Assembly: GCA_035712365.1 (NCBI GenBank)
Contig: DASTAW010000017.1
Coordinates: 1-58,038 of the forward strand
Source of the DNA: Terriglobia bacterium
GTDB lineage: Bacteria; Acidobacteriota; Terriglobia; UBA7540
Length of the DNA stretch: 58,038 nt
Reading direction: 5' to 3'
Translations under genes and position numbers: made by a program
Notes under the pieces: generated by a model
The model's input: only the letters and a program-made list of their open reading frames with translations
Told to the model about the DNA's origin: nothing
The model's database searches: none
Shown here: positions 10,300 through 38,191 of the stretch, one piece after another
Position numbering within the stretch: position 1 is the first letter of the stretch
Layout of the letters: each line of letters opens with the position of its first letter

Positions 10300-10718
10300 G
10301 ATGAAAATCCAGTGGCAAGTAAATAGTGGTCAGCGACCAGCCGGGTAGTGCAGAGTTGTTTTTCAACTCTGCGGTTCTTAATTTTTATGAAAAAGTAGTG
10401 ACACCCCTACGCACGACTCTACTCTGCCACGTCGGCGGCACAATTTGAAATCTGAAATTTCAGATGTCAGATCCCATAACCCAAAACGCAGAACTCAGAG
10501 CTAGCAACGGCGTCGTAAAGCCGCCGCCCGTCCCATTTCAAATCTCAAATTTCAGATTTCAAATCTCTCCCCATAACTCAGAGCCCTGAACCCAGAACCG
10601 GCACCCGCGGGGTAAAGCCGCTCCTACGCCCTGTTTCAAATCTCAAATATTGGCATTCACAACTCGCAACTTGTAATTGCCGTGGCTCGTCACTAACCAC
10701 TCATCACTAACCACTGCC
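10300..10718. repeat. Repeat-rich spacer between ADOP genes 1 and 2
   Basis: A 419-bp spacer without a credible gene. Next to the ADOP-1 start it has a block with GGTCAGCGACCAGCCGG (about 10328), shared in variant form by the other two ADOP 5' flanks. It then carries three copies of a self-complementary AT-rich motif built from TTTGAAATCTCAAATTTCAG-type words (about 10441-10470, 10534-10567, 10625-10650), alternating with CCCAGAACC/CATAACCC words. It ends at 10690-10718 with CACTAACCACTCATCACTAA just after the ADOP-2 stop. Confidence 0.65.
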
Positions 10719-13451: not shown

Positions 13452-13785
13452 GGCAAAAACCAGGGGTTAGTGGTTAGGGGTTAGTGACCAGCCGGTTAGT
13501 GCGCTTTGAAATCTCAAGTCTCAAATTGCAGAACCCATAACCCAAAACCCCGAACCTAGAAAGTCATCCGCAATTCGCAACTCGTAATTTCCGCTCCGCG
13601 GCCTTCCGCAAACGGCTCAATTTGAAATCTCAAATTTCAGATTTCAAATTTCAGACCTAAACTCATAACCCAGAACGCAGAACTAAAAACTCGTTCGTAA
13701 TTCGAAATAGCGGTGGCTCCCCTTTCATCGCTCTGCCCCTATGGCCTCTCTGCTAGCCGCTACCCACTAATCACTAACCACTGCC
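13452..13785. repeat. Repeat-rich spacer between ADOP genes 2 and 3
   Basis: A 334-bp spacer with the same grammar as its neighbours. GGGGTTAGTGGTTAGGGGTT and GTGACCAGCCGG lie beside the ADOP-2 start (13465-13500). The TTTGAAATCTCAA-type motif occurs at about 13506-13530 and 13619-13656, with CATAACCCAGAACGCAGAAC words in between. CTAATCACTAACCACTGCC at 13765-13785 adjoins the ADOP-3 stop. No gene is recognised. Confidence 0.65.
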
Positions 13786-17719: not shown

Positions 17720-17891
17720 CCTTGGGGGAAAGCAGCGCGGATCCCGGCAACATTTTGCAGCGGCTCCTGAGTGCAGGTGATTGGCACGACTCGTCTGCGG
17801 GCTGCGCAGCCGTGCCGATCAACCGGGCGTTCTGGCGGGTTGTTCCATCGCACCGGCCGTGCCCAGACCCGCAGCAAAGGAGAGGAGAGCT

Positions 17892-19499: not shown

Positions 19500-19514
19500 C
19501 CTTAGGAGGAATGG

Positions 19515-19724
19515 ATGAAGCGATTACGATATTTACTTTTGGCGTCTGGCGCGGCGTTTCTGTTGACGAGCGGTTCATGGCATTTCAGATGGCGAGGGTG
19601 GGAGATCCTGCCGGCGTCGGACGCGGCATCTTTGTTTACGATTTCTCGAAAGCTCCTGCATCGGGGAAATAGGAGAATGGCGGTGGCGCCTAAAACAGGA
19701 AACTATTTCAAAAGCGAGGTCTGT
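19515..19724 (+). other. Possible leader or N-terminal extension ORF in frame with the cupin gene
   Basis: ATG 19515 has a strong SD (TTAGGAGGAATGG) only 16 bases after the permease stop. The frame begins with a signal-peptide-like MKRLRYLLLASGAAFLLTSG and continues without a stop through unrecognised sequence into the cupin ORF, which has its own signal peptide at 19725. It may be a remnant of a deleted exported protein, an upstream coupling ORF, or an alternative longer start giving 225 residues. The double signal peptide argues against one long protein. Confidence 0.3.
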
Positions 19725-20192
19725 ATGAACATTCTAAAGAAAGCATTCACGGGAGTCTGTGTTATCGGCGTCATGCTTGCGTGGACCGCGGCGGCAACTG
19801 CAGCGCAGGACTCTTCACCAAAGGTCCAGTACTACTCGCAACAGCAGGTAGCTGCCGCCTTTGCCAAGGGCGCAAAACTGGTTGAGGGCAGCGCCGGACA
19901 TGTTGTCTACCAGGTGTTAACGGCACGGCGGGACGGTCCAGGCGAGGTGGAGGTCCACGCGCTCGACACGGACATTATTTACATCATCAAGGGAACAGCA
20001 ACCTTTGTGACAGGCGGAAAGATTATCGACGCCAGAAATTCAGCCCCGAACGAAGTGCGTGGCAAATCGAGCCAGGGCGGCACACCGCACCAACTGGGTC
20101 CGGAGGACATCATCATTATCCCTCCTAAGGTGCCTCACTGGTTCGAGGCTGTGCAGCCTCCGTTTTTATATCTTGTGATCAAGGTACGCTAG
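19725..20192 (+). CDS. Secreted cupin-domain protein
   Basis: Small exported protein of 155 residues. The start is placed at ATG 19725, since the product then begins with a clear signal peptide (MNILKKAFTGVCVIGVMLAW, cleavage near ATA|AQ) after a GCGAGG SD. A single cupin barrel (about 60-150) shows the first motif around EVEVHALDTDIIYIIKGTAT, a central GKSSQGGTPHQLGPEDIIII, and the second-motif histidine in PPKVPHWFEAV. The first motif lacks the classical HxH pair (HALDTD instead), so metal binding may be altered. It sits between the lactate permease and the beta-helix gene on the same strand. The substrate is unknown; carbohydrate or small-molecule binding is inferred only from the fold. 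Confidence 0.8.
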   Translation: MNILKKAFTGVCVIGVMLAWTAAATAAQDSSPKVQYYSQQQVAAAFAKGAKLVEGSAGHVVYQVLTARRDGPGEVEVHALDTDIIYIIKGTATFVTGGKIIDARNSAPNEVRGKSSQGGTPHQLGPEDIIIIPPKVPHWFEAVQPPFLYLVIKVR

Positions 20193-20240
20193 TCTTCCCC
20201 AACAACGGTGTAATCACATGACCAGATAAGGAGAACTCGA

Positions 20241-21611
20241 ATGGCAAAGCCTGATCGTCTTGGATTCACGCGCCGTGGTTTCATCGGGGCTGCGGCGACG
20301 CTTGCCGGAAGCGCATTTGCGGTGCCCGGCGTAGCGAGCGAACAGGATGGGACGATGCCGGCGGCAGCCCCTTCAACGGCCGCAGGCGAGCCCAGATGGG
20401 ACGCTCTCAGCGTCACAGTCGGACCTCAGAAGGCCGACCTGGTGGGAGCCAGCGAAAAAGTGATTCAGGCGGCGGTGGATTACATCGCGGGGTGGGGCGG
20501 AGGGACAGTGCACATCCTGCCCGGAACTTACCGCATGCGGAACTCAGTGTCGCTGCGGTCCGGTGTGCGAATTCTGGGAAGTGGCCAGGATTCCGTCCTG
20601 ATCAAAGAGCCCGAAGTTAAAACAAAACTGGCGGAAGACTCCACTTCCTGGCAACAGGAAGTCGTACTGGCCGATCCCAGCGGCTTCGAGGTGGGCGACG
20701 GAGTGTGCCTCCAAGTGATTGACGAGTGGCACCAGGGAGCCTGGTTCATCCAGCGATCGCTCGTGGCGCGCAACGGCAACCGATTCAAATTGAACAAGCC
20801 GCTGAGCGACGATGACTTCACCGTGAAAGGCAAAGCGACGATTGGGACGCTCTTCCCACTGCTCAACGTAGACGGTGTTTCGGACGTGCGAATTGAGAAT
20901 ATCGCCCTGGACGGCAACCGCGCGAAGCAGGAGTCTCTCTACCACAATTGGGGAAACATCCTGGGTGGCGTATGGCTGAACAAGAGCAACCGGATCGAGA
21001 TGCGCAAAGTCATCTCGCGGGAGTCCTGCGCCGACGGCATCAGCGCGCAGACATGTAATGACCTGCTGATTGAAGATTGCCATTGCGTCAATAACGTGGG
21101 ATTTGGCATCCATTCCGGCACCGGCTCCGAGCGGCATATTGCCCGCAACAACAGGCTGGAAAACAATTACATCGGTTACTACTTCTGCTGGGGTGTGCGT
21201 TTCGGGCTGGCAGAAAACAACACCATTCTGAACAACTCCGAATACGGCGTCCGGCTGGGGCAGAAGGATACCGACAATGTTGTGCGAAACAACGAAATCC
21301 GGAACAGCGGCAAGGTCGGGGTGATCTTCGAGAGAGTGGGAGACGATCCAGCCTACTCGCCTGATCGAAACCGGCTGGAAGCAAACCGCATTATTGACAG
21401 CGGCGGAGAAACGGGCGTCGGAGTCGACGTGGAAGGTGTAACGAAGAACGCAGTGATCGAGCGGAACGAGATTGCAGAAACCCGCCAGCCGTTGAAGCGC
21501 ACTGGCCTGAGGATCGGCGCCCGTACGCGCGGCGTTAGGCTTGACGCCAACCGCGTTACAGGATTCTCGGTAAACGTCCTGGACCTGCGGAAAGCAATTG
21601 CCAGAGCATAA
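20241..21611 (+). CDS. Tat-exported right-handed parallel beta-helix protein (pectate lyase-like)
   Basis: Predicted periplasmic or extracellular carbohydrate-active protein, 456 residues. The ATG follows AAGGAGAAC. The N terminus is a twin-arginine signal (LGFTRRGFIGAAATLAGSAF). From about residue 70 it has the start of pectate-lyase-3-type folds (DYIAGWGGGTVHILPGTYRM, with SLRSGVRILGSG). Between 210 and 440 there are regular beta-helix coils rich in N/R ladders (LEDNYIGYYF-like turns, NNTILNNSEYGVRLGQ, VVRNNEIRNSGKVGVIFERV), typical of PbH1 repeats. Such proteins act as polysaccharide lyases, hydrolases or epimerases; catalytic residues cannot be assigned from sequence alone. It is 48 bp downstream of the cupin gene, probably in the same operon. 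Confidence 0.85.
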   Translation: MAKPDRLGFTRRGFIGAAATLAGSAFAVPGVASEQDGTMPAAAPSTAAGEPRWDALSVTVGPQKADLVGASEKVIQAAVDYIAGWGGGTVHILPGTYRMRNSVSLRSGVRILGSGQDSVLIKEPEVKTKLAEDSTSWQQEVVLADPSGFEVGDGVCLQVIDEWHQGAWFIQRSLVARNGNRFKLNKPLSDDDFTVKGKATIGTLFPLLNVDGVSDVRIENIALDGNRAKQESLYHNWGNILGGVWLNKSNRIEMRKVISRESCADGISAQTCNDLLIEDCHCVNNVGFGIHSGTGSERHIARNNRLENNYIGYYFCWGVRFGLAENNTILNNSEYGVRLGQKDTDNVVRNNEIRNSGKVGVIFERVGDDPAYSPDRNRLEANRIIDSGGETGVGVDVEGVTKNAVIERNEIAETRQPLKRTGLRIGARTRGVRLDANRVTGFSVNVLDLRKAIARA

Positions 21612-21804: not shown

Positions 21805-23463
21805 TTAAGTTCGGATGCCGAGATCTTTTAGTGCGGCCCCGGCGCCGGATAAATTCTCAAGCCTCATCTCAGAGTACTTGCGCGACAGGATAACCCCTGG
21901 AGCGCCGGCATTGAAAGCCGCCTTCACGGCATTCCGAACGTCCGAGGGCTGCGTCTTCTTTTGTCCCTTGCCAGTAGGAATGTCAATGTCGATGCCAGGG
22001 TAGATCCTTGTCTTCCCGTCTGGTCCGGAGGCATCTGGTCCATTGGCAGGACCTGCAAGATCGGTATTCGGAGAGCCCACGGGCACCTTGGCCGATCTAA
22101 CATCATTTAGAGCTCGCCTCGTTTCACGGTAAACGTAATCCGACGAGAACCCGGCCGTGCGCAGCTTGTCTAACGGCGCCTCCCCCTGATATCCCAGAAT
22201 GTTGTAGTACAACTCCAGCACGGATTGGGCCGGCGCATCATGCCAAATGGTTGAGTGGACGCCGTCGATGTAATTGGCCATGCGAGGACCGGCGCAGTTG
22301 TTGTACATGCAAATCTTCAAAATGTCGGCGTATTGACTGAGTATTCGATAGTCCTGTTCGGCGCGGTAAAAGGGATTGAAGGAGTTCAGATGCATCACAT
22401 GGAACCCCGCCTCGAGGTTGGTATTGATGCTTTTGGCCGTGCCGTAGATTCGACCGTAAACTTCCCGCTGACTGTCCGTCCAGAGCTTCTCCCAGGCCAG
22501 GATCTCGGGGTATTCCAGCAGCAGCCGCCAGAAAGTGACAAAATAACCATCACTTGGCCTGGGCCCCGTCCATGCTGCCCGCACCCAGTGATCAAGCTGC
22601 ATCATACCCTGCCGTGCCCGATCGACGTTGATGCCTTGCTGTTCTCCCTTTCGTGCACAGTGCTCGCAAAAGCAGGTTAGGACCGCCTGGCCACGGTCAG
22701 CGTCGATGGCATTATTCAGTGCGCCCTGACGTTCGCAGCACCACATCACTCCGTCCACGTCGTAGGACTTGGTCCAATCCTCAACCATCGAGCTGAGAAA
22801 GTTCTGGAGGTAAGGATTGTTCAGACACGACTGGTCCGTCTTGCGGCCATAGACATCCACCTCCGCAGCTTTTTCAAAGTTGTCCAGCAATCGCGGATTG
22901 TAAACATCCTCGAACCAGCAGATGGATTTCATTCCCCGCTTCTTTGCCTTCGGGACAACTTCGCCCAGCACATCAAAGTTGCCCAGATCTGGCGCCCGGA
23001 AATTCTTAAAGATCGTTCCAGCGTAATATTCCGCATGGACCTCGGCGAAGTCTCCGCCATGGAAGGTGTCCGTATCGTACTTCTGGACTCCGTGGTCGGG
23101 CAGCGGATGTCCGGGAATTTGCCTTCCCTCAATACCCCGCCCATAGCTGAAGACCGCAATCATCAGCGTGTTAACACCGGCCCGCTCCTGGAGCGTATCG
23201 AGAACTTTGTCAACTCCTTCATCACTGAAGGACACGGCGGGGACCTGAATCGCCACGACCTTCTTTTCTGATTTCTGTGGGCCGCCATCCTCTGACTGCG
23301 CGTTCGCCGGGACTGCCGCCTGGATTGCGCCCGCACGGCCACCGACTGCGGCCGCCGACGCGGCAGCAACATTCTTGAGGAAAGTGCGTCGGGATGGATT
23401 TGCCGCTTGAACCTTTGAGGCGTTCTCTGGCCTCTCTGACAGACCAGAATCGTGATCTCGCAT
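21805..23463 (-). CDS. Tat-exported putative TIM-barrel glycoside hydrolase-like protein A
   Basis: Exported protein of 552 residues. ATG 23463 is preferred over the TTG just upstream because the GGGGAGG SD is then well spaced. A late twin-arginine motif (NPSRRTFLKNVAAASAAAVG, about residues 25-45) is preceded by a hydrophilic lead. The remainder resembles the hypothetical glycosyl hydrolase (GHL) TIM barrels: IAVFSYGRG near the start, KKRGMKSICWFEDVYN, SCLNNPYLQNFLSSMVEDW, YDVDGVMWCCERQG, and a CFCEHCARKG dicysteine element before the helical region. The Cys pair and the Asp in DVDGV are conserved in GHL6-like proteins; no proven catalytic pair is visible. It is the last gene of the minus-strand glycan locus, 85 bp after the next hydrolase-like gene. 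Confidence 0.75.
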   Translation of the reverse strand: MRDHDSGLSERPENASKVQAANPSRRTFLKNVAAASAAAVGGRAGAIQAAVPANAQSEDGGPQKSEKKVVAIQVPAVSFSDEGVDKVLDTLQERAGVNTLMIAVFSYGRGIEGRQIPGHPLPDHGVQKYDTDTFHGGDFAEVHAEYYAGTIFKNFRAPDLGNFDVLGEVVPKAKKRGMKSICWFEDVYNPRLLDNFEKAAEVDVYGRKTDQSCLNNPYLQNFLSSMVEDWTKSYDVDGVMWCCERQGALNNAIDADRGQAVLTCFCEHCARKGEQQGINVDRARQGMMQLDHWVRAAWTGPRPSDGYFVTFWRLLLEYPEILAWEKLWTDSQREVYGRIYGTAKSINTNLEAGFHVMHLNSFNPFYRAEQDYRILSQYADILKICMYNNCAGPRMANYIDGVHSTIWHDAPAQSVLELYYNILGYQGEAPLDKLRTAGFSSDYVYRETRRALNDVRSAKVPVGSPNTDLAGPANGPDASGPDGKTRIYPGIDIDIPTGKGQKKTQPSDVRNAVKAAFNAGAPGVILSRKYSEMRLENLSGAGAALKDLGIRT

Positions 23464-23548
23464 CAATTCTCCTCCCCTTCTGGTTCCGCCAGGATCGCTG
23501 GACGGCCAGCATTAGCCGGCGCCCTAATTTCTGAGAATCGTCGCCGCC

Positions 23549-25111
23549 TTATGATGCGTGCCGGCCGTTTGGCCGCAGCGTGAGCGTACCGTCTTCATTC
23601 AATTTCTGATGGCAGGCCCATCTTACCGGATATCGCATGCCTTTCACTTCGATCGCCGCCCTCAGTCTGAGCCCTTGCCACTTGGTTCCCTTGGGCAGCA
23701 CAAATTGCGCCTGACGGACTTTTCCCGGCAACGGATATCCGGGGTCGAGGCAGCCGCTCTTCAGCACTTTTCCATCCGGGCTTTCCACGCTGACCCGCAG
23801 CACACCCGGAACGCCTGCAATGCCGTCGTTCGCAAAGCCGATAATCAGCCCGAGGTATCCTTTGTCCTCGTAGCTCCAGATGAACGACGGTCTTACCCGG
23901 TAACCGATGCGCGCATTAATGCGGTCAAACCACTTCGGAAACGCGTGGTACCAGCTCGTCAAGTTCTCGGCGCTGATCCCGTGGAAGTTCCAGAGAGACC
24001 AGTAATTGGCTCCAACGTCCATCACGTGCGCAATCATGTCATCGGAAGGCGACACGCCCTCGTCCACGCGAACAGATTGCGGTGGTCGGGCCGGTATGCC
24101 CTGTTCGATTGTGACGCCAATCCAGGGCGGGCGATTGCTCAGGGCCTCGATCTGCTCGTTCTCGATAAAAATCGTGTCGCTCCGAATCCAATTGTTGCTG
24201 CGGACCGTGCGGTCGAGCACCTCCGAATTTCCAACTCTGCTGAAATCCGGCTGCGTGTTGGTGAGCAACGGCGTCTTCGTGAAGTGTTCGAGCTGGACTT
24301 CCAGCATGTTCACCCAGGTCCTCTCCGCGGTCTGATAGTCTGGAAAGGGAGTATTGGTGAATGGCCATGTGTGGCCCTCGCCCCAGAATCCGTACATGAA
24401 GGTATCCATGAATTCGATCATGGGACTTCCGTTGAACTCCGCCGCCAGCAATCCAACCAACTCCTTGAATGCCTGCTGAAAGAAAGGATCAGCAAATTGT
24501 GGCTGATAGTGCGCGTTCGGGTTGTTCTCGCGATTGGCGCCAGGCCATGTGCCCCCGGTCAGTTTTACCATGGGGACCTTATCAAGGATGAACTGGGGCA
24601 GCGCCGGTTCGTGATAGTCCGGAGCGCTCATCTGAATTCGGTAAGCAATACGCTTGTCGTATTTTTTGGACAACTCGAAAATGAGCTTCAGGTAATCGGG
24701 AAACTCAAGACGCCCCGGATTTGGCTGGATTTCTCTCCAGGTAGGACGAATATAAAGCTTTTGTCCCAGCGGAAACCGGACCAGATCTTCGATCGCCTGC
24801 GGGATGTTGTCTGACTTGATCTCCGCCGTCCCCATGTCCGCCGTGATGTACGTTATCAGCCCCTTGCCATAGCCGGGCACAACCTCATCCGATGGCATGG
24901 TTGTCATCACGACTTCGTCGCTCGGGATAATGGCGTCTGGAGGGTACTGTGGGAAGGGCCCCTGGTTCAGCCGGTCGGTTACGGCCGGGCCCGAGCCAAA
25001 ATCGTACTTCCCCCAATTGTGGGCAGGGACAATGCCCTGGGCCGACTTTGCGCCGACCCCCGCTGCTGCCACGAGAGCACTGCTGTTCTTCAGGAAATTT
25101 CTGCGATTCAT
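23549..25111 (-). CDS. Tat-exported putative glycoside hydrolase-like protein B (DUF4832-like)
   Basis: Exported protein of 520 residues. The ATG at 25111 has a GGGAGG SD, and the Tat signal MNRRNFLKNSSALVAAAGVG is unambiguous. A TIM barrel (about 85-400) carries features common to GH5/GH42/DUF4832-like enzymes: YIRPTWREIQPNPGRLEFPD (the tryptophan-glutamate-proline first-strand pattern), FMYGFWGEGHTWPF (candidate acid/base Glu), and SLWNFHG late in the barrel. A C-terminal beta-sandwich (about 405-515, with GVPGVLRVSVESPDGKVLKS) resembles the DUF4832 tail. The substrate is unknown. Its position downstream of the TonB receptor and TPR genes supports a role in periplasmic glycan breakdown. Confidence 0.75.
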   Translation of the reverse strand: MNRRNFLKNSSALVAAAGVGAKSAQGIVPAHNWGKYDFGSGPAVTDRLNQGPFPQYPPDAIIPSDEVVMTTMPSDEVVPGYGKGLITYITADMGTAEIKSDNIPQAIEDLVRFPLGQKLYIRPTWREIQPNPGRLEFPDYLKLIFELSKKYDKRIAYRIQMSAPDYHEPALPQFILDKVPMVKLTGGTWPGANRENNPNAHYQPQFADPFFQQAFKELVGLLAAEFNGSPMIEFMDTFMYGFWGEGHTWPFTNTPFPDYQTAERTWVNMLEVQLEHFTKTPLLTNTQPDFSRVGNSEVLDRTVRSNNWIRSDTIFIENEQIEALSNRPPWIGVTIEQGIPARPPQSVRVDEGVSPSDDMIAHVMDVGANYWSLWNFHGISAENLTSWYHAFPKWFDRINARIGYRVRPSFIWSYEDKGYLGLIIGFANDGIAGVPGVLRVSVESPDGKVLKSGCLDPGYPLPGKVRQAQFVLPKGTKWQGLRLRAAIEVKGMRYPVRWACHQKLNEDGTLTLRPNGRHAS

Positions 25112-25373
25112 CAGTAATCATGCCTCCCCTCGCCGGATGGGTTAAGAGCTTTCGGTACGATACACCGCTAGTGAACCGACGCGTTCTCGTCGGGTCCTGT
25201 TATGAATTGAAACTTTTACGATACCAGGCCGGGTTCCGCCATCACTGCGGAGGTCTGGCCAAACACTTCGGCGCGATCCTGCTCAGCGCCCGCGGAGGGC
25301 CGGGATCACTGAACAGCCCACCAGCATCACCACGCCCTTTTGCATGCTCGCGGACGGAATCTCGTAGAATTTC

Positions 25374-26984
25374 TCACTCGTTTGAGTTTTTCCGCGCGGC
25401 TGGATCGTGCGAGCCCGCGAGAGTTGTGTCGCCCTTCTTTTCCTTCCCCTTTAGCTGCTGAAAAAGGCGCATTTGCTCCATACCTTCTTCCTGACGGCCC
25501 ATGCGGAGATAGGCCCGAGCCAGGGCGTAGTGCGCGCCGCTCGGTTTCGGGTCGAGCTTCACCGCCAATTCGAGTTCCGGCAGGGCCCTCCCGGTGTCGC
25601 CCTTGGTCAACTCAAGGTTGCCAAGCAGATAGTGCGCTTCAGCGAGCGATGGATCAAGAGTAAGCGCCTTCCTCAGCAAAGCTATGGCCCGATCTTCGAT
25701 CTTGCTTCCGTTGGCGCCGCGGTAGGTCAGCAGCATCCTGCCATACTGCAAGTAGAGGTCGGGATCTTTGGGGAAGTAGCTGATGATCCTCTCAAACGTG
25801 GCCTCCGCCTCATCAATTCTTCCGTCATCCACCTGGGCAGAGGCGAGCCCGAGCAGCGATTGCTGGTCCTTCGGATTCAGTTCCACAGCCTGCGCATAAG
25901 TTTTTTCAGCAGCCTTCAATTCACCCAATTTATATTGGGCAAGGCCAAGAAACCGGTAGGCCTTGTACGAGTGGGGAGCTACCTGGACGGCTTTCCGAGC
26001 GGCAACCAGCGCGCCGTTGTAGCGATTGTCGTGCAACAGCATCAGGCCCACGTCCAGATAATTGGACTCGCGCGAAGGATCGAGGCCGATGGCCCTGTCC
26101 ATAAGCGCCACCGCCTGCTTGACGTGGTCCTGTTTAAATTCGCACCAGGCCATCAGGTCGTCGATATCTGAGGTCTCGTGTCCGGCATCCAGCAGACGTT
26201 GAAGCGTCGCCCGGCTCTCCCTAAAGTGGCCGGCGTGGTATTGGGCGAGTGCAATGTTATACCCGAGACTCGCTTTGTCGGGATAGGTCGCCTCAATTGA
26301 CCGGAACAAATGTTCCGCCAGGTCATAATCGCCCGCCTGGTCTGCAACTTGCCCTCCCAGGAAAATCCCTTCAGGTCCCTCCGAATGATTTTCGAGCCCC
26401 CGAAGGACCTCCCGTGCTTTCTCCGATTTTCCGGTCTGATAATAACAGCGGGCTAGCGCCACCTGGGCTTTGGAATGCTTCTGCACTTCCTGTGGCACGG
26501 ATTCGAGAAGCGGGAGGGCCGTGTGATAGTCCTTGAGTTCTTCATCCACCATTCCCAGCAGAAGCGTGGATGTGGTTTCGCCCGGCTCCGCCTTCAGTAT
26601 CCGCTCCAGGTTCTGCCTGGCTGCCTGAAACTGCCCCATTTGGAACTGGTTTGAGGCAAGGTTACGGCGCGTCCGCACGTCCAGAGGGTTGAGGCGCAGC
26701 GCTTTTTCAAGATAAGAAGTTGATTCGGGGAGCTTCTGCTCCATGCCCAGCACCGCCCCAAGAAAAGCAAGACAGGCAGGATCGTCAGGGGTGAGCTTGG
26801 CTGCCTGGCGCAATTCCGCCTCGGCATTTTTCAAATCGCCTTGCTGGACCAGTGCCGTTGCGTGCGCCACATGCTGCTGTGCATCAGCAAGGTTATTGGG
26901 CAAAGTGTGAGCGGCTTGCGCCCAGAAACAGAGATAAAGGGCTAGAATGGCGTAGATAAGACGCGAGGTTGGCACTCTTCCCAT
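25374..26984 (-). CDS. Exported TPR-repeat protein
   Basis: Protein of 536 residues made almost entirely of tetratricopeptide repeats after a signal peptide (LIYAILALYLCFWAQAAHTL). About 12 TPR units can be followed from residue 35 to 515, for example LKNAEAELRQAAKLTPDDPA, SYLEKALRLNPLDVRTRRNL, KAAEKTYAQAVELNPKDQQS and LRKALTLDPSLAEAHYLLGN. The C terminus is charged (KGKEKKGDTT). Such proteins are scaffolds for complexes at the membrane. Here it sits 155 bp downstream of the TonB receptor gene and upstream of two hydrolase-like genes, so it may organise the uptake machinery in place of SusD-like proteins. That role is inference from context. Confidence 0.85.
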   Translation of the reverse strand: MGRVPTSRLIYAILALYLCFWAQAAHTLPNNLADAQQHVAHATALVQQGDLKNAEAELRQAAKLTPDDPACLAFLGAVLGMEQKLPESTSYLEKALRLNPLDVRTRRNLASNQFQMGQFQAARQNLERILKAEPGETTSTLLLGMVDEELKDYHTALPLLESVPQEVQKHSKAQVALARCYYQTGKSEKAREVLRGLENHSEGPEGIFLGGQVADQAGDYDLAEHLFRSIEATYPDKASLGYNIALAQYHAGHFRESRATLQRLLDAGHETSDIDDLMAWCEFKQDHVKQAVALMDRAIGLDPSRESNYLDVGLMLLHDNRYNGALVAARKAVQVAPHSYKAYRFLGLAQYKLGELKAAEKTYAQAVELNPKDQQSLLGLASAQVDDGRIDEAEATFERIISYFPKDPDLYLQYGRMLLTYRGANGSKIEDRAIALLRKALTLDPSLAEAHYLLGNLELTKGDTGRALPELELAVKLDPKPSGAHYALARAYLRMGRQEEGMEQMRLFQQLKGKEKKGDTTLAGSHDPAARKNSNE

Positions 26985-27139
26985 TCCGAGCCTCTGACCA
27001 GATATTCAGAATAGCGGGGATTGATTTCAGGTCAAAGACACTTATCAAAAACCTTCGCGAGAGAGGCAAGATGCGCGAAATCGCCTGGCCTGGCTGCTGC
27101 GAAAGAGGCTTGGCTGGATAACCAGCCAAGCCTGACCTT

Positions 27140-30100
27140 TCAGAACACAAAATGGATGCCGATCTGGCCGTGTCGAGGCTGGTTCTCCTGGTAGAAGATA
27201 CCACCGAATCCATCAGCACCATAGCCGGTCCCATCGTTCGTATTCGCCGCAGGAGCCCCGAACCGAGGATTGTTCAGGGAGTTGAAGAAATCGCCTCGCA
27301 CTTCAATAAACATGTTCTCCCTGATGCGGAATTGCTTGGCGATCGAGAGGTCAAGATTGGCGATGCCCGGCACTCGGCAGTTCGATAAGTATCGCGGCGC
27401 AGTGCCGTCCATCTGGTCTGCCGGGTGCGAGAAGGCACTATTGTTAAAATAACTCGCCGTTCCATTGGCAATATTGTCGAGGCTCGCGCCGCTGCACGGG
27501 TTGCCAATCAAATTGGGGCGCTGGTGGCCGTCGGCCACAAGCAGGTTCGAGTCATCCACAGAAATAGGCTGCCCGGTCTGGAAAGTGACGAACGGGGTAA
27601 GTTTCCATCCGCCAACCACTCCATCGAGCACTCTGTTCATATTCGAGCCAAATCGCTGCCCGTGCCCGACGGGCAAGTCATAGATCACTGCGAAGGTCAG
27701 ACGCTGCGGCGTGTCATTGGCGCTGACACTCTTCTCCAGCGCAAGATTGGTGTAGTCCTGCGGAGAACCGACGAACCCAATGCCTGCGCCACCGCCACCA
27801 CCGATCCAGGCGTTGCCTCCGGCATCGGAGTTATCGAGGAACTTCGAGAACGTATAGTTACCCACAAATGACAAGCCCTTCGCTGCCCGTTTTTCAAAAC
27901 GCACCTGGAGAGCATGGTAGCTGCTGTTGGCAACAAAAAGCGGGAAGCCGGTGAAACCTCCGTCGAATTGCGGGTAAGGACGCAACAGGTTGATCTGAGG
28001 AATTGTATCATTGTTATAGATCGAACCAGGGGCATCGAAAATCTGAGTTGGCCCCGGCTGGAAAAGGTAAGCGAAAGGATTCGGCACCAGGTTCGCCAAT
28101 CCGGTCGATCCATACTTCACTCGGTTCGCCGCGTTAATAAAGTCGCGGTTCTCCGTGGAGTAGTTCCACGGCAGATGAGTGCCGCGGTTCCCCACGTAGT
28201 CCACTTCCAGCATCGTGTTGCCCCACTGGTGCTGGATGCCAGCATTCCACTGGTAAATTTCGCCCGTTCTGAAGGTGTCGCTTCCATGATTCTCGGCATA
28301 GTAACCCCAAAGGCTGAGTGGTCCATACTTCCCCTGCTGGGGAAGGTTGAAGCCAAGGGGAAAAGGATTTCCCATGGTTGCGAGCTGAGTGATTCCGCCA
28401 TCCAGGGATGAGGGAGAGCTGGCATCGGACTGCCAGGCGCCTCCGCCGTATTGCCAGTTGGTGGCGAAGCTCATCCCATGGTACAGTCCCGCGCCTGCGT
28501 GAATAACAGTGTTTCCGGTAAGCCGGTAAGCAAAGCTGAGGCGCGGCCCGAGGTCAAAAATAGAAGCGTTCGCGTGCCGGTTGTGGGGTCCGGCAAGAAT
28601 CATGGTTCCCGTAAGCGGGCCCACCCCTGGAACGGTGATTCCCGAGGGGCACGAGAAACAGCTGAACATGTTGCGGTCTTGCCGCTCGCTATATGGAACC
28701 GTCCATTCCCAGCGCAGTCCCGCCCCAACCGTCAGGCGGGAAGTTGCCTTCCAGTCGTCCTGCACAAACACAGCGCCGACGGACGATTTGTTGGACACGT
28801 GAGGACGCAGCGCGAAGCCACCGTTGCCATACCAGCCCAGCAGCAACGAGGCCACGCTGCTGCCCTGGGAAAAGTCAGGGCTGAAGACGCTCTGCATGGT
28901 CTCTCCCTGTCCGAACGAAAAAGACCCGGAGGTTGTGTCCGGCTGGAAGAAGTTGTTAAGGAAGATCCGTTCCTCGCCGCCGAACTTGAGGCTGTGATTC
29001 CCGTACATCTTCGTAGCTACGGAATCGAACATCCACTGCGTATCGCCTTCCACGGTGTCCGTACAGCAGCCATTGTTGGACGCAAGAGTTGCATAGTTAT
29101 CGAGCGAGATGGTGGGGAAATGGATCTCTCGGTACCAGACGTTGTTAATCATGCTCTCGGGAAAGCCTATGCTCAAGGGATCTACTGTTACCAATGCCTG
29201 CTCGGGATAGTTATCACGGATTACTCCCACCCGGTTGACCCAGAGCAGGGTGGGGCTTACGGTCCAGGTATCCTCCAGAGCCACGTCGTGCGTGATGGCT
29301 TTTGAGACTACGGGTGTCAGGAAGTCATCCGGAGTGTTGGTCGAGCCATGGCTCATGCTGAACCGGCCCGTCAGGCGATTGGCCGCCGAGAAGTTTTGGT
29401 CAATCTTGAGGTCCATCTGCCAGGATGGACTCGTTTCAATCAGCTTATCGGAGAAATTGCCCAGATGCCCGGGCCCTACACCGGCGTCCGTTGGCTGTGG
29501 GTAAAGGTTAACCAGTTGCGCGGCGATGGGGTCGACGCAGGTGGGCTTGGGAGCGCAGAGGTTTGTGGCGCCCATAGGAATCATGTTGTTAGCAAATGGT
29601 TGGCGCACATAATCTCCACTTCCATCAGGAGCAACTTGGTATGGATTGAAGATCTGCCTCAGACTCCCGTCATCATTGAATGATTGTGAGAAGTCCCCTT
29701 GCCGCTCGAGCAGAGTTGGAACCGTTTTATTCACAACGATGGGGGAGTTGTTGCGAAACCGCTCGTAGTCGAAGAAGAAGAAGGTCTTGTCCTTTACGAT
29801 CGGCCCACCAACCGATCCTCCGTACTGATCGTGAGTGTATTGGCCCTTGGTCCCGCCACCCTGGTTGGTGAAAAAATCGTTCGCATCCAGGCCTGGCCGG
29901 CGGAAAAACCAGTACCCGCTACCATGGAACTTGTTGGTGCCTGATTTGGTAACGACGTTGACCACCGTGCCGCCGTTATTTCCGTACTCGGCGGACATAT
30001 TGTTATTTTGCAATCTGAATTCCTGTAAAGCGTCGACGTCGGGCATGTAGCCCACGTCCGTGTTGCCGCCCTCGCCACCCTCAGGCCGCGTCGCCAGCAC

Positions 30101-30769
30101 TCCATCCAGCCTGAACTCCGCCGTGCCGTATCGCTGCCCGTTCGAGGCAAATACGGTGCCGCCCAGCATGTCCGCCGAGGCGCCCGAAACCTGGGTGACG
30201 CCTCCGGAAAGGTATGAGAGGTTCGCGATATTCCGGTCCAGCAAAGGCAAACTCTGGATGTACTGATTGTTGACGGTTGTGCCTAATGCCGCACTCACCG
30301 TATTCAGCAGCGGCGCCGCGCCCGTGACTTCCACGATCTGCTGCGTGCTCCCGACTTGCAATGTGACGTCCTGGTCCGTCTGGGTTCCGATTCGTAGCTC
30401 CATCGACGGGAAAACCCAAGTTTTGAAGCCGGCCTTTTCCACCTTCAAGCGGTAAATCCCCGGCTTGAGATAGTTGAAGATATAAAGACCGGCGCTGTCG
30501 GTTCGCGCTCCGGTCTGCACCTGTGTTGCAATTGCTGTCGCGGTGACCGCCGCATCCGGAATGACGGCCCCGGTGGGGTCTTTGACAGTTCCGCGCAGCA
30601 ATGCTGTGTCTGTCCCCTGGGCCCACCCGGCAACAGGCTGCAGGGCGCAGATTGCCAGCCCTGCCAATATGCAGCTTGCCAGAGCGAAATAGGAAACAGG
30701 GCCCCGGAATTTAAGAAGGAAGTTTACTGCACGCCTGGGGTCGGTGGTTGAAAAGTAGCTCGCCCGCAT
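27140..30769 (-). CDS. TonB-dependent receptor, Oar-like, with carboxypeptidase regulatory domain
   Basis: Outer-membrane transporter of 1,209 residues, the usual size for acidobacterial Oar/CarboxypepD-reg receptors. The ATG at 30769 follows AAGGAGGG. A signal peptide with a long N region (cleavage near GWA|QG, about residue 51) precedes a CarboxypepD_reg-like beta-sandwich (about 55-145: RGTVKDPTGAVIPDAAVTAT, GLYIFNYLKPGIYRLKVEKA). The plug domain (about 150-270) has EYGNNGGTVVNVVTKSGTNK followed by WFFRRPGLDANDFF. The barrel of about 900 residues ends in an aromatic strand (GQIGIHFVF), as required for BAM insertion. There is no SusD partner gene. Such receptors import large oligosaccharides or peptides; the TPR protein and hydrolase-like genes downstream point to glycans. 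Confidence 0.92.
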   Translation of the reverse strand: MRASYFSTTDPRRAVNFLLKFRGPVSYFALASCILAGLAICALQPVAGWAQGTDTALLRGTVKDPTGAVIPDAAVTATAIATQVQTGARTDSAGLYIFNYLKPGIYRLKVEKAGFKTWVFPSMELRIGTQTDQDVTLQVGSTQQIVEVTGAAPLLNTVSAALGTTVNNQYIQSLPLLDRNIANLSYLSGGVTQVSGASADMLGGTVFASNGQRYGTAEFRLDGVLATRPEGGEGGNTDVGYMPDVDALQEFRLQNNNMSAEYGNNGGTVVNVVTKSGTNKFHGSGYWFFRRPGLDANDFFTNQGGGTKGQYTHDQYGGSVGGPIVKDKTFFFFDYERFRNNSPIVVNKTVPTLLERQGDFSQSFNDDGSLRQIFNPYQVAPDGSGDYVRQPFANNMIPMGATNLCAPKPTCVDPIAAQLVNLYPQPTDAGVGPGHLGNFSDKLIETSPSWQMDLKIDQNFSAANRLTGRFSMSHGSTNTPDDFLTPVVSKAITHDVALEDTWTVSPTLLWVNRVGVIRDNYPEQALVTVDPLSIGFPESMINNVWYREIHFPTISLDNYATLASNNGCCTDTVEGDTQWMFDSVATKMYGNHSLKFGGEERIFLNNFFQPDTTSGSFSFGQGETMQSVFSPDFSQGSSVASLLLGWYGNGGFALRPHVSNKSSVGAVFVQDDWKATSRLTVGAGLRWEWTVPYSERQDRNMFSCFSCPSGITVPGVGPLTGTMILAGPHNRHANASIFDLGPRLSFAYRLTGNTVIHAGAGLYHGMSFATNWQYGGGAWQSDASSPSSLDGGITQLATMGNPFPLGFNLPQQGKYGPLSLWGYYAENHGSDTFRTGEIYQWNAGIQHQWGNTMLEVDYVGNRGTHLPWNYSTENRDFINAANRVKYGSTGLANLVPNPFAYLFQPGPTQIFDAPGSIYNNDTIPQINLLRPYPQFDGGFTGFPLFVANSSYHALQVRFEKRAAKGLSFVGNYTFSKFLDNSDAGGNAWIGGGGGAGIGFVGSPQDYTNLALEKSVSANDTPQRLTFAVIYDLPVGHGQRFGSNMNRVLDGVVGGWKLTPFVTFQTGQPISVDDSNLLVADGHQRPNLIGNPCSGASLDNIANGTASYFNNSAFSHPADQMDGTAPRYLSNCRVPGIANLDLSIAKQFRIRENMFIEVRGDFFNSLNNPRFGAPAANTNDGTGYGADGFGGIFYQENQPRHGQIGIHFVF

Positions 30770-30899
30770 TTTTCCCTCCTTGAGGAGTTCAGACCCGACG
30801 ACTCAGACAATCACAACGAATAACAGGACCCACTCATCGCGCAAGAACTGAATTGGGGAATGTACCTATCTAAGCCTCTATAACACCTGTATGTGGGCA

Positions 30900-30928
30900 G
30901 TTCTAACGCGAAGGCATTACTTTGTCAA
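30900..30928 (-). promoter_or_regulatory. Sigma70-type promoter for the TonB receptor gene
   Basis: On the minus strand, a perfect TTGACA (30928-30923) and TAGAAC (30905-30900, four of six) are separated by 17 bp. Transcription would begin near 30893, giving a leader of about 120 bases before the start at 30769. The rest of the 368-bp gap (30770-31137) holds no gene. Confidence 0.5.
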
Positions 30929-31137
30929 GGATTTTTTCTATTGTTTTCGATTTGGAAACTAATCGTAAGGCAGGAGGAGCTTTCGTTTGGCTGAGGAACA
31001 TCATTGATTATCACCAGTCTGTCTGGTTGATGGCGGTAACCTGGAAAGGAAACGTAAGCCGTGCCGGGAGCGTCTGGGTGGTCAAAGCCAGGATCGTCGG
31101 TCTCTGATCGACGGCGCTTTATTCACGAGTGAAGCCT

Positions 31138-33174
31138 CTACTCGAGCCACACGACCGCACCCTTATCGATCACGGGCACGACAACGCGAAGCCGTTCGCC
31201 ACTCCGTTCGACGGGAAGATTTCGGGCCTTCCCCAGGAAAGGCAAAACAAATGCTCTGCTCCCCGTATCTGGAGGGAAGAAGATCTCGACGTTCTTTTCC
31301 GGAATCTGCGTTGCATTTTGCCGCGGCCGGAGGCCTTTGAAGTTGGCAAGGAAGACATGGGCCTTGCCATCCACCCGCGCCGTCTGGGCCGTGACGAAAG
31401 GTGATGCGTTAATCTGTACGGGCAAATTGACTTTGAGAGCCCCAATGGCATTCGTGTCGAATTCATGCCTCAGCGACTGGAAACTCCGCCCGGTGGCCGT
31501 ACCTTGGGAAGCGGCCTGGCTGAACTCCTTGCCCAATGTCTGCCAATACGCGCGTCCTGGGCACTCGGGGAGGTAGACGTATCCTCCCCCGGCAGCGCCG
31601 CTTGATCTTTCGCCCGAATTCCGGATTCCAAGAAAATGGTGGAGCGCATTGGACGGGCGAACCTGGCCGCCTTCATCGCACTGGCCAGACTGGCCCGAAA
31701 CAATAAGCTTGCCTCCGGACCTGGCGTGGGATTCCAGGGCCTTAATTTCCACGTCGCTCAGGCAGCGCGCGTCCGGCAAGGCAAGGATCGGCCCGCGAAA
31801 ATCAGCCAGGGTCCTCGGTGTGACAATCTGAAATTCTAGATGGGAATGCATCAGCAACGCCATGGTCCCGAAGTAGGAATCGAGGAATTCTTCCGCAAAG
31901 TAGTCCCGCGTGCGCGGCGAGAAATAGACGCCAATCGGGTGAATAGGCGTCCGCGAATTATAAAACGTCGTGTCGTGTTGCTCGATCCAGGCGAAAATCT
32001 TCTTTCGCATTGCGATGTCATTCGAGCCCGACATCACGTGGCCATGGACGTCCCAGCAATTTGTACCCGCCATGAGCTGTGCAGAAAACAGGTTCTGCAT
32101 CTCCTCGCCGGGGCTGACGCCCTTCTCGCCGTCCCACGAATAGCTGAGCATCCAGGTCGGTTTTTTGCCGGCAAAGGCGCGAAAGCTGTACATGCCGATC
32201 ATGAAGTGCAGCCAGTCGAGCGACGTCTTCCTCGAAGCGTTCCCTACTCCACTCCATTCATACTCGTGAGCAATCAGGTCGATCACGTCGTAAAGTTGAT
32301 AAACATCTGAGCCAACCCGCACGGCCTCGAATTCAATACCCGGATAGATTTCCGCTATGGTCACGCCTTTCGGGTTCACTGATTTGAAGTTGTCCCCGAC
32401 TTCCTTCATGAACTCGGTAATCGTGGTGATGCGGAAATCCACCCAGCGGCGAAAATTAGCATCGGAGAAATCGCCCAGCTTCAGGCCGGTCATGGCATTC
32501 AACCCGGTGCGCTTCTTGAACTCGGCCACCGTGTACTTGTCGAAGCTGGCCCAGGTCTTCTCCCAGCCGGTAAAATGCGTCATCCAGTAGGGGATATCCA
32601 CGTAGATGCCGTCGATGCCCGTGGCCGCAATCTGGCGGACGTGTTCCATGTAAATCTTGCGCCACTCGGGAACATAGGGGCTGACCCAGACATCCTCATC
32701 GCCCTTCCGGATCCAGAAGGCCGTGCCTCCCCCAAACAGCGCCGGCTCGCCCGTGATCTTCCTCTGGACCCAGTCAGGATGGTCCTTGTAGAGGGAGTGC
32801 TTTACGGTGGCGGCGTTCGCAGTGATGCACTCGAATCCCGCAACGTAGACAAAGGCATAATTGCCCGCGGCGTGCGCTTTCTCAGCCACTGCTTTGATCG
32901 CCTTCAGCTTTTCGGCTGGATCGAGAAAACTCTCATAGCGTCCCTCGATGTCATTGTCAGTCTCAATGCCGAAGACGTGCGTCTCCGTCGCTTCCCGGAC
33001 GATCTCGTCAACTCGGTCCAGCCTGAGGGAGTTGCCCGATATGCGGACATAATTAATCCAGGGTAAAGGTTTTGACGAACTGCCGGCCTGCGCTGCCGCC
33101 AGTTGACGCGGCTTGCAAATGACCACAGCTATACCGGCCAACTGGGCTTGAAGGAACCCGCGACGTGAAATCAT
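31138..33174 (-). CDS. Tat-exported putative glycoside hydrolase-like protein C (GHL6-like with GATase-like domain)
   Basis: Exported protein of 678 residues. ATG 33174 is chosen over TTG 33180 because AAGGAGA is then 7 bases away. The Tat-like signal is ISRRGFLQAQLAGIAVVICK. A TIM barrel (about 40-400) resembles hypothetical glycosyl hydrolase 6: AAGNYAFVYVAGFECI, HPDWVQRKITGEPALFGGGT, GIDGIYVDIPYWMTHFTGWE (candidate catalytic Asp after DGI) and MLSYSWDG. A second domain (about 440-540: LADFRGPILALPDARCLSDV, GGKLIVSGQSGQ) resembles the GATase-1-like trimerisation domain of GH42-type beta-galactosidases. A short beta-sandwich ends the protein. It lies upstream of the TonB receptor gene on the same strand but is separated by that gene's own promoter. 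Confidence 0.78.
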   Translation of the reverse strand: MISRRGFLQAQLAGIAVVICKPRQLAAAQAGSSSKPLPWINYVRISGNSLRLDRVDEIVREATETHVFGIETDNDIEGRYESFLDPAEKLKAIKAVAEKAHAAGNYAFVYVAGFECITANAATVKHSLYKDHPDWVQRKITGEPALFGGGTAFWIRKGDEDVWVSPYVPEWRKIYMEHVRQIAATGIDGIYVDIPYWMTHFTGWEKTWASFDKYTVAEFKKRTGLNAMTGLKLGDFSDANFRRWVDFRITTITEFMKEVGDNFKSVNPKGVTIAEIYPGIEFEAVRVGSDVYQLYDVIDLIAHEYEWSGVGNASRKTSLDWLHFMIGMYSFRAFAGKKPTWMLSYSWDGEKGVSPGEEMQNLFSAQLMAGTNCWDVHGHVMSGSNDIAMRKKIFAWIEQHDTTFYNSRTPIHPIGVYFSPRTRDYFAEEFLDSYFGTMALLMHSHLEFQIVTPRTLADFRGPILALPDARCLSDVEIKALESHARSGGKLIVSGQSGQCDEGGQVRPSNALHHFLGIRNSGERSSGAAGGGYVYLPECPGRAYWQTLGKEFSQAASQGTATGRSFQSLRHEFDTNAIGALKVNLPVQINASPFVTAQTARVDGKAHVFLANFKGLRPRQNATQIPEKNVEIFFPPDTGSRAFVLPFLGKARNLPVERSGERLRVVVPVIDKGAVVWLE

Positions 33175-33462
33175 GTTCAATCTCCTTGTGGGTCACGAAT
33201 CTTAGCAGCAACTGTTTCCGTTTTCCAGTCCCCCAAATTCGGAGGCAGTCTCGTGTGCGAAGTGCTGGGAAGAATAGACCGGCGGAAAAATCGTTCAGGC
33301 TGGAGTCAGAACACGCAGAGATCGCGCACGACGAGATAGGCCCGGCAATCGCACGGCGTGTCCACACAGGTTGTTCGGTGATGGTGGCCGCAAGGGTCGG
33401 TAACCGCGGCCTGGCGGCCCTGACTGCTGATGAAGGCCGTCCGATTTGCTTTGGGGAATGCT

Positions 33463-33741: not shown

Positions 33742-34027
33742 GAGATTGGAACCTGCACGCCCGTCATCTCAATTATATATCCAGTTCCATCGGAGTGGTT
33801 GGGCGAGGCTTCCGGGATTTGCATCCTCGGCTTCGGGAAGCTGTTTTCCGCGTTCTTTCCGCTAATCACCACCGGCAGGGCCGACTTGGACGCCGGCACT
33901 AGCACCCTGCAAGCCAGTGTTGCAGGCCGGTATCGCACATAGCGTGCCCTGGACACACCACCCGCCAACAAGCATTTTGCTGCCCATTGACACCCTGGTG
34001 ACAAATTCTGAAGGCTGGTCTTCTAGT

Positions 34028-38000: not shown

Positions 38001-38191
38001 GCGAAACTCCTTAAACATGAAGGCAGCGATGGACGCTATCAAAGCCGGCTACGGCTGTCAAGCTGCCCGGCTGAGACCTGCGTGCCAGCCGCCGCTGAGG
38101 CTTGTGCCAACGAATACGCTCAGGTAAACTCTTCGAAAACTGCTATCTCGCAGAGGTCAGAATCTGCGGCTCGCGCGGCCGGACGGGACAT

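Follow-up and report, generated by a model that had tools for sequence, protein, structure and literature searches.

The window analysed here, a stretch of 58,038 nucleotides of contig DASTAW010000017.1 from a Terriglobia bacterium, carries five co-oriented open frames, which encode a TonB-type receptor, a TPR protein and three barrel proteins with RR signals, here called GHL_C, DUF_B and GHL_A (Table 1). The co-orientation stated in the preliminary description is confirmed, all five frames being found on the minus strand. They are separated, in ascending coordinates, by 82, 262, 155 and 368 bp. An ATG lying in frame two codons into GHL_C accounts for the end at 33174 reported earlier.

Table 1. 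Genes of the locus, in the direction of transcription
Gene	Position	Strand	Description
GHL_C	31138-33180	-	Exported three-domain glycosidase-like protein; first gene in the direction of transcription
Oar-like TonB-dependent receptor	27140-30769	-	N-terminal carboxypeptidase-regulatory-like domain
TPR-repeat protein	25374-26984	-	N terminus resembling a secretion signal (by eye); lineage-specific component of the locus
DUF_B	23549-25111	-	Predicted Tat-exported protein with TIM barrel and beta domain, putative divergent glycosidase of the DUF4832 superfamily; core of the finding
GHL_A	21805-23466	-	Predicted Tat-exported protein resembling GHL10/GHL6; last of the five genes

Conservation of gene order in relatives had been set beforehand as a check that could refute this grouping. 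The five-gene order recurs in a sister genome (G037, locus L100) with 83-90% identity, and the order receptor, TPR protein, DUF_B in another genome (G012, locus L102) with 51-68% identity; the arrangement is thus more than chance. A third genome, G038, of the same genus, has DUF_B at 87% identity with its partners absent within 19.9 kb, which counts against the galactosamine reading developed below.

Twin-arginine signals had been attributed to all three barrel proteins. GHL_A (18.4 bits) and DUF_B indeed match TIGR01409 over the cut-off, whereas GHL_C has no TIGR01409 match and displays an RR-x-F motif at its start. With starts picked by script, RRxF lies within the first 60 residues in 37 of the 40 aligned DUF_B rows (the window and 39 of 46 picked representatives) but in only 2 of the 20 GHL_C rows (the window and all 19 representatives), the window being one of the two. 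Consequently, the RR signal characterises DUF_B but not the relatives of GHL_C.

The receptor matches PF25183 OMP_b-brl_4 (632 bits) and PF13620 CarboxypepD_reg (71.8 bits). The TPR protein has clear repeats (TPR_19, 171 bits) and is retained in G037 (83%) and G012 (51%). A TPR protein stands beside DUF_B only within the window's own family (L006/L100 and L011/L102); at an 80-bit cut there was no TPR match beside DUF_B in 80 further loci, some of them short. The suggestion that it could be a SusD substitute is thus unsupported as a general feature, and we rejected it as such. The Pfam matches, conserved order and neighbourhoods do support the locus as first described: SusD-less, linked to a TonB receptor, devoted to glycan use and encoding three hydrolase-like proteins of poorly known families. 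It resembles the SusC/SusD polysaccharide-utilisation loci of Bacteroidota in linking a TonB-type receptor with exported glycosidases, but the receptor here is of Oar type (PF25183) and SusD is not among the Pfam matches listed for the five genes and three neighbours (for the TPR protein, the best 25 of 41 families).

DUF_B gave nothing in a Pfam scan up to E 0.1 except a TAT model below its cut-off, and hmmscan found no match to PF16116 DUF4832 (gathering score 29.2 bits) up to the same E value. The earlier label ‘DUF4832-like’, which hmmscan does not show, is nonetheless borne out by profile-profile comparison: hhalign aligns DUF_B with a DUF4832 set at 98.5% (E 2e-15, 365 columns), with controls against GHL_C and GHL_A at 6.5% and 7.3%. 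On these profiles DUF_B is a distant relative of DUF4832 hydrolases. Its model (mean pLDDT 84.7) has two tied best matches, beta-amylase 1b90 (Z 18.8, rmsd 3.8 over 288) and an entry for a mannanase (Z 18.0); GH35/GH42/GH5 entries come next, and GH35 beta-galactosidases rank top in Foldseek. With an alpha-acting beta-amylase tied with a mannanase, the predicted folds leave the linkage unfixed, which counts against the galactosamine reading. Residues E245 and E336 are identical in 40/40 rows, and we regard the catalytic residues as putative. The DUF4832 alignment comprises 12 of 19 loci, seven having been omitted because they were fragments, had a wrongly chosen frame or, in one case, contained masked letters. 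The WGE motif found after strand 4 of DUF_B is likewise placed in at least 6 of these 12 rows, and in three further rows the pattern search stopped at an earlier WGE; the remaining three have no WGE, so that E245, the putative acid residue, is not fully conserved in this set, a point against the galactosamine reading. Solved relatives were sought by sequence for DUF_B, GHL_A and the GH135 protein of locus L079, none being convincing, and a search for viral carriage gave four pattern matches, none of them a relative.

GHL_C comprises a TIM barrel, a GATase-like/GH42M-like domain and a C-terminal beta domain. It passes PF02638 GHL10 (28.6 bits, cut-off 27.9), while its GH42M score of 15.6 bits is below the cut-off of 25.8. 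In the AlphaFold2 model (mean pLDDT 77.7) this architecture is of the GH42/GH164 type, the full-length protein (residues 36 to 680) matching GH164 6t7g with Z 21.4 and rmsd 3.8 over 526, in agreement with the ‘GATase-like’ domain described before. The closest match of the barrel itself is PgaB 4p7n (Z 23.0, rmsd 3.2 over 305), whose C-terminal hydrolase we take to be GH153, and the top Foldseek match is exo-beta-glucosaminidase 8oug (E 6e-20); these nearest folds act on beta links, again a point against the alpha-linked polymer preferred below. Membership of the PgaB family was rejected, the resemblance lying in the fold alone: identity to PgaB and GH164/GH42 is 10-12%, the profile comparison with E. 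coli PgaB gives 19% probability over 69 aligned columns, and PgaB, although the best PDB sequence match of the GHL_C profile, is a weak one (E 0.061). GHL_A is below the cut-offs of both PF02638 GHL10 (25.5, cut-off 27.9) and PF14871 GHL6 (26.3, cut-off 35); it is found in 6 of 39 family genomes and 5 of the 66 DUF_B loci counted below. That the three barrels share a close ancestor was likewise rejected, hhalign giving 0.2% for GHL_C and GHL_A beside the low control values above, and blastp of GHL_A against the other two giving no match up to E 1. When the barrels were checked for non-carbohydrate families, the two that were modelled, DUF_B and GHL_C, gave predicted glycosidase folds.

Neighbours were counted in 66 loci of at least 8 kb, taken from the best 80 of 116 DUF_B loci after 14 shorter ones were dropped; longer overlapping script-picked frames displaced the DUF_B frame in L035 and L059 and the GHL_C frame in L089. 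A TonB-dependent receptor of the cluster of the window's receptor is present in 30 of the 66 loci and in 17 of 20 GHL_C loci, and GHL_C and such a receptor together accompany DUF_B in 17/66. AgaZ/GatZ occurs in 10 loci (an AgaZ-like gene in L084, at 103 bits, comes on top of these), AgaS in 9, one or the other in 17, PfkB in 8 and GH36 in 19. A DeoR-type regulator is found in 9; of these, one was tested and had its highest score against AgaR, below the cut-off. Against a galactosamine route count the 32/66 loci with neither an aga nor a GH36 gene and the 7 of 20 GHL_C loci without this set, one of which (L079) has GH135. AgaZ and GH36 also serve galactose routes, a further point against the galactosamine reading.

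Some loci bring these elements close together. In G244 (L139), a genome of another family, AgaS, PfkB, FBA, AgaZ, GH36, an amidohydrolase, GH36 and DUF_B follow one another on one strand within 12 kb. In L107, a GHL_C relative fused to a GH36 melibiase domain lies next to DUF_B. L076 and L079 each have a GH135/Spherulin4 gene next to DUF_B and GHL_C (91.7 and 92.8 bits, cut-off 30.2); as these are near kin (DUF_B 93%), they count as one lineage. L047 holds a GH135 remnant of only 43 residues, and no GH135 over the cut-off was found in 297 sampled genomes of the phylum. Pfam places DUF4832 proteins within a few genes of DUF_B in L074 and L084, and our own profile does so in L028 and L078. Within the small DUF_B clade of the window, in a quick tree (forks 80 and 89, not starred), L052 has AgaS, PfkB and GH36, and L092 has GH36.

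The 297 genomes, a sample not chosen through DUF_B, include 16 with near-full-length AgaZ, 7 with DUF_B and 3 with both (Fisher one-sided p 0.004, not corrected for ancestry). ‘Near full length’ was our own choice: it keeps 16 of 24 genomes over the cut-off and excludes 8 short matches and 16 below the cut-off. G244 is one of the three genomes with both; in the other two, AgaZ stands at a distance from DUF_B or on a separate contig, and G260 combines three copies of DUF_B with no match to AgaZ, both of which count against a shared route. So does the genome of the window, 98.89% complete, which gave no AgaZ/GatZ match. Its best AgaS-family match reaches 109 bits against a cut-off of 529.2, which 1 of 14 control genomes passes, and scores higher to GlmD and GlmS. 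Representatives of aga, GH36 and GH135 had no match in the window itself. Contig 8 of the same genome groups homologues of GH36 (52% to L060), PfkB (59% to L076) and SIS (53% to L031), which may serve the same route as the locus.

From the computed genes, conserved order, DUF4832 relation, folds and neighbourhoods of relatives we infer a substrate, a linkage and a direction of transport. Our preferred reading, which we hold at somewhat short of an even chance, is that the locus serves the SusD-less, TonB-linked uptake and breakdown of an exopolysaccharide that contains galactosamine, most probably one of the alpha-1,4-linked GalNAc/GalN/Gal kind, as in fungal galactosaminogalactan or bacterial Pel. 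Exported DUF_B would cut the polymer, GHL_C, in other genomes together with its fused or neighbouring GH36 partner, would trim the pieces, and the Oar-like receptor would carry the oligosaccharides into the periplasm. In the cytoplasm, an SIS-type deaminase/isomerase and a PfkB kinase would lead via tagatose phosphates to glycolysis. Where the earlier description had no known substrate for any of the proteins, polymers containing galactosamine or galactose can now be put forward as a hypothesis.

Several known systems echo parts of this scheme. SIR_1591, a barrel protein of DUF4832 whose model resembles beta-amylase and beta-galactosidase, broke up Pel-driven aggregates in one report; there it was also dispensable for aggregation and Pel production, which counts against the galactosamine reading (PMC12345266). 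This protein of the streptococcal pel locus and DUF_B both combine a TIM barrel with a C-terminal beta domain, and the best fold matches of both include beta-amylases and beta-galactosidases, those of SIR_1591 being taken from its published description. While SIR_1591/DUF4832 is membrane-anchored in a synthase operon, DUF_B is predicted to be Tat-exported in a TonB-linked setting. Families GH135 (Sph3), GH114 (Ega3), GH166 (PelA) and GH191, endo-galactosaminidases, cut galactosaminogalactan or Pel according to two further sources (PMC12054363, PMC11356417). A GH135-family gene adjoins DUF_B in the one acidobacterial lineage mentioned above, whereas the fold matches listed for DUF_B itself are GH14, GH35, GH42 and GH5. 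Like the enteric aga operon, the loci of relatives hold AgaS, AgaZ/KbaZ, an AgaR-like regulator, a PfkB-type kinase and a class II aldolase. Unlike it, they link TonB receptors and exported hydrolases, a phosphotransferase uptake protein is not among the best 25 of 64 neighbour families, and no aga representative matches the window.

The target could instead be a polysaccharide of plants or microbes that contains galactose but no amino sugar, such as galactomannan or arabinogalactan side chains, with GH36 acting as alpha-galactosidases and AgaZ/PfkB as a tagatose-phosphate route from galactose. GH36/melibiase is indeed more frequent in the 66 loci than any single aga gene, one galactose-1-phosphate uridylyltransferase occurs among the neighbours, and the DUF_B and GHL_C models resemble GH35/GH42 beta-galactosidases. 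We nevertheless find this unlikely: some of the same loci hold an AgaR-like regulator and AgaS, a GalN-6-P deaminase/isomerase of the pathway described in a review (PMC12118421), GH135 would be left unexplained, and the DUF4832 relation points to Pel. Other GalNAc- or GlcN-containing targets, namely glycoprotein glycans, PNAG or a mixed biofilm matrix, would suit the PgaB-like barrel of GHL_C, its weak PgaB sequence match and the exo-beta-glucosaminidase at the top of Foldseek; with so short and poor a PgaB profile alignment, and with AgaZ/AgaS indicating the galacto series, this appears quite unlikely.

The absence of AgaZ from the genome and the solitary DUF_B of G038 would fit five genes that share no pathway, the aga linkage seen elsewhere being not transferable and DUF_B here having switched substrate. 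An Oar-like receptor nearby would then be unremarkable, as 54 matching pieces in the 4.67 Mb of the genome, when merged by eye, amount to about 43 of them. Yet the orders kept in G037 and G012 and the recurrence of GHL_C and the receptor with DUF_B make such a coincidence distinctly improbable in our view. We give still less credit to the idea that the set serves to remodel or recycle exopolysaccharide or envelope made by the cell itself instead of providing food. PgaB (in pgaABCD), PelA, Sph3 and SIR_1591 do sit in polysaccharide-making clusters, according to the literature, but DUF_B is linked with a TonB receptor and catabolic genes, and a polysaccharide synthase is not among the best 25 of 64 neighbour families.

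Few soil bacteria are as common as the Acidobacteriota, and what they feed on is poorly known. Extending the galactosamine reading, one may speculate, although we consider it somewhat unlikely as a whole, that Acidobacteriota, together with KSB1 and certain Bacteroidota, feed on cationic galactosamine slime produced by fungi and bacteria, using SusD-less TonB loci. Two unassigned glycosidase families would do the cutting, DUF_B as a beta-amylase-like alpha-galactosaminidase and GHL_C, GH36-fused in one genome; the window would be a reduced version with its intracellular half on another contig. If the galactosamine reading is right, Acidobacteriota would occupy a niche as consumers of fungal and bacterial biofilm polymers, a testable food source, and two hydrolase families would be named for testing that might help to disperse biofilms. 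An independent hint of feeding on galactosamine polymers comes from a 2026 rhizosphere study, in which treatment with a galactosaminogalactan-making fungus raised Acidobacteria and Planctomycetota and a synthase mutant raised them less, the authors suggesting for the mutant a lost platform or lost nutrients (PMC13245733).

According to a frame check, the five frames claimed in the preliminary description are all present on the minus strand (see table), and in transcription order from GHL_C to GHL_A they are separated by 368, 155, 262 and 82 bp. The GHL10 match of GHL_C barely exceeds the Pfam cut-off. Twin-arginine signals had been proposed for all three barrel proteins; the proposal holds for DUF_B and GHL_A, and in GHL_C it comes down to an RR-x-F motif with no match to a TAT model. 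Within the first 60 residues, RRxF is found in 37 of 40 DUF_B rows versus 2 of 20 GHL_C rows, that of the window and one other.

The five-gene set of the window, in transcription order
Gene	Position	Strand	Remark
GHL_C	33180-31138	-	first
Oar-like receptor	30769-27140	-	second; PF25183, 632 bits (Pfam)
TPR protein	26984-25374	-	third; TPR repeats backed by Pfam/NCBIfam scan
DUF_B	25111-23549	-	fourth; TAT signal above cut-off
GHL_A	23466-21805	-	fifth; TAT signal above cut-off

DUF_B falls into no Pfam family. Its model is good (pLDDT 84.7) and displays a TIM barrel with a C-terminal beta domain. Among solved structures, GH14 beta-amylases score highest (1b90, Z 18.8, rmsd 3.8 over 288), level with a mannanase entry (9m20, Z 18.0); GH35, GH42 and GH5 enzymes come next at Z 16-17. 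Foldseek places GH35 first (5jaw, E 8.8e-12). The modelled fold thus says glycosidase, but since beta-amylase, mannanase and GH35/GH42/GH5 matches are mixed it leaves the choice between an alpha and a beta link undecided. Two glutamates, E245, nine residues past strand 4, and E336, directly past strand 7 in the model, are invariant across all 40 rows; they sit roughly at the sites of the catalytic carboxylates in such barrels and are putative catalytic residues. The DUF_B profile aligned to DUF4832 proteins from the same family of genomes at 98.5%, E 2e-15 over 365 columns; two further barrels served as negative controls. The glutamate of the WGE motif occupies the expected place in at least 6 of 12 DUF4832 rows, as well as in that of locus L115 in the profile alignment; three of the 12 lack WGE, so that this residue is incompletely kept in the DUF4832 set. 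At least one family of the five-gene set, the glycosidase-like DUF_B, has no model in Pfam or NCBIfam, the two libraries scanned.

DUF4832 genes occur in pel clusters (PMC7112168). The DUF4832 barrel protein SIR_1591 of S. intermedius is described in PMC12345266 as resembling beta-amylases and beta-galactosidases in its model, and folds of both kinds are likewise found for DUF_B. In that paper, added purified SIR_1591 disrupted preformed Pel-dependent aggregates, and neither aggregation nor Pel production needs the protein (PMC12345266).

The model of GHL_C is fair (pLDDT 77.7). The closest fold to its barrel is the hydrolase domain of PgaB (4p7n, Z 23.0); at full length it is nearest to GH164 (6t7g, Z 21.4 over 526 residues), along with a beta-1,2-glucosyltransferase and GH42 enzymes, and the first Foldseek row is an exo-beta-glucosaminidase (8oug). 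Membership of GHL_C in the PgaB family was considered and set aside, the sequence link being too weak. Genome G260 has its GHL_C match in the stretch L107, where a 1288-residue frame (8305-12171, minus strand) is a natural fusion of a melibiase (GH36) domain and GHL_C, with DUF_B as the next gene upstream.

The gene order is conserved in relatives. In G037, of the window's genus, all five genes stand in the same order, with identities of 83-90%, and the window's beta-helix, cupin and lactate-permease genes come after them. G012, of a different genus in the family, keeps receptor, TPR protein and DUF_B in order (51-68%) on a contig that stops about 1 kb past DUF_B. In G038, again of the window's genus, DUF_B (87%) has no partners within 19.9 kb. 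Across the family, DUF_B is present in 11 of 39 genomes and GHL_A in 6 of 39; of 297 sampled genomes of the phylum, 7 have DUF_B and 3 have GHL_C, with the window's own counted both times.

Cultured carriers of DUF_B loci include Paracidobacterium acidisoli 4G-K13 (L035) and Acidobacterium sp. S8 (L043). Of the best 80 among 116 DUF_B loci, those spanning 8 kb and upwards, 66 in all, were used for a neighbour count based on our own frame picking and clustering. A receptor is found in 30 and GHL_C in 20, 17 of which also have the receptor; GHL_A is found in 5. The other neighbours are GH36 (19), Amidohydro_2 (13), AgaZ (10), AgaS (9), a DeoR-type regulator (9) and PfkB (8), so that 34 loci carry at least one gene of the aga/GH36 set and 32 carry none. 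One representative of each was assigned to GatZ/KbaZ (549 bits), DeoR, SIS, PfkB and Melibiase; matches to the AgaS family (275), AgaR (190) and agaZ_gatZ (519 bits) all lie below curated cut-offs.

Since DUF_B itself served to choose these loci, a search for AgaZ and one for DUF_B, both in the 297 phylum genomes, were compared as well. Near-full-length AgaZ occurs in 16 and DUF_B in 7; they coincide in 3 genomes versus 0.4 expected (p 0.004, shared ancestry ignored). G244 carries on one strand, in order, matches to AgaS, PfkB, class II aldolase, AgaZ, GH36, amidohydrolase, GH36 and DUF_B. In G195, PfkB, AgaS, AgaZ and GH36 are clustered and DUF_B lies at another place; in G234, DUF_B and AgaZ are on separate contigs. 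A quick tree was built from 79 DUF_B rows, with labels given by locus and hence alike for paralogues of one locus. Its starred branches require the aga/GH36 label to change at least seven times. This count sets the label against the 11 GHL_C-without-aga rows alone and leaves out 23 ungrouped rows; 23 of 500 shuffles gave a number no higher. The label is thus clustered to some extent, yet spread over several clades. The window's own small clade includes L052 and L092 (forks 80 and 89, not starred).

In two relatives' loci, L076 and L079, a Spherulin4 gene (PF12138; 91.7 and 92.8 bits) precedes DUF_B and GHL_C. Spherulin4 is the family to which Sph3/GH135, a fungal hydrolase of galactosaminogalactan, belongs (PMC11356417, PMC12054363). 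Searching the PDB directly with the L079 sequence gave no Sph3 match, and its GH135 assignment hence comes from Pfam. With DUF_B 93% identical between them, the two loci are closely related and so count as one lineage. A 43-residue remnant of the GH135 gene is present in L047, a locus with AgaS and DUF_B. GH135/Spherulin4 is rare in the phylum, none of the 297 genomes exceeding the cut-off and one giving a weak match below it.

No GatZ/AgaZ was found in the window's genome. Its contig 8 carries, within about 10 kb, a GH36-like protein (52% to that of L060 over 824 residues), a PfkB (59% to L076), an Amidohydro_2 protein and a SIS protein. The latter is 53% identical to the SIS protein beside an AgaR-like regulator in L031 and 26-28% to nine AgaS-cluster members, and its scores against GlmD and GlmS exceed that against AgaS. 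Because contig 8 resembles the gene set of the relatives' loci, the intracellular half of the route may lie at this second place.

The observation behind the preliminary description is sound, and its general idea, that acidobacteria use glycans through a scheme not yet described, is a reasonable one. Its statement that no substrate is known can now be replaced by a testable proposal, a galactosamine-containing exopolysaccharide, for which the family-level case is better than that of the window, whose genome lacks AgaZ. The locus would be a form of TonB-linked glycan use, a known kind of scheme. No described locus of this kind appeared among the open-access papers listed for Acidobacteria, nor among the 10 of 99 listed by a wider search.

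Contig 59 of the window's genome carries another paralogue of DUF_B (36%), accompanied by a receptor of its own; close by is an Amidohydro_2-like protein, 27% identical to the representative of the Amidohydro_2 cluster. In twelve loci (L025, L026, L028, L031, L038, L039, L048, L049, L055, L062, L070, L071) a second paralogue, 36-39% identical to the window's DUF_B, comes directly or shortly after the first, and such pairing suggests two enzymes with different roles. A small CBM9-like protein close to DUF_B in 9 of the 66 loci (L025, L026, L028, L031, L038, L039, L048, L049, L071) is a candidate glycan-binding partner.

Elsewhere in the window, a plus-strand row of lactate permease (PF02652), cupin and right-handed beta-helix genes (17781-21611) keeps its order beside GHL_A in L100, the G037 locus. 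An enolase-superfamily dehydratase (36669-38042, minus) is near the ManD and D-galactonate dehydratase families (399 and 390 bits, both below curated cut-offs) and by eye has an RR-type export-like N terminus, odd in a cytosolic enzyme. A single plus-strand frame (33917-36289) unites a GT87 membrane glycosyltransferase domain with C-terminal WD40-like PD40 repeats, an unusual pairing. The minus strand also carries a tandem of three large permease-like paralogues whose N termini closely resemble one another (7639-16512), an AbiEii/AbiEi-type toxin-antitoxin pair with overlapping frames (45799-47674) and an efflux pump of the AcrB family (PF00873) which, by eye, adjoins adaptor- and outer-membrane-factor-like frames (48621-54850), presumably a metal efflux set.
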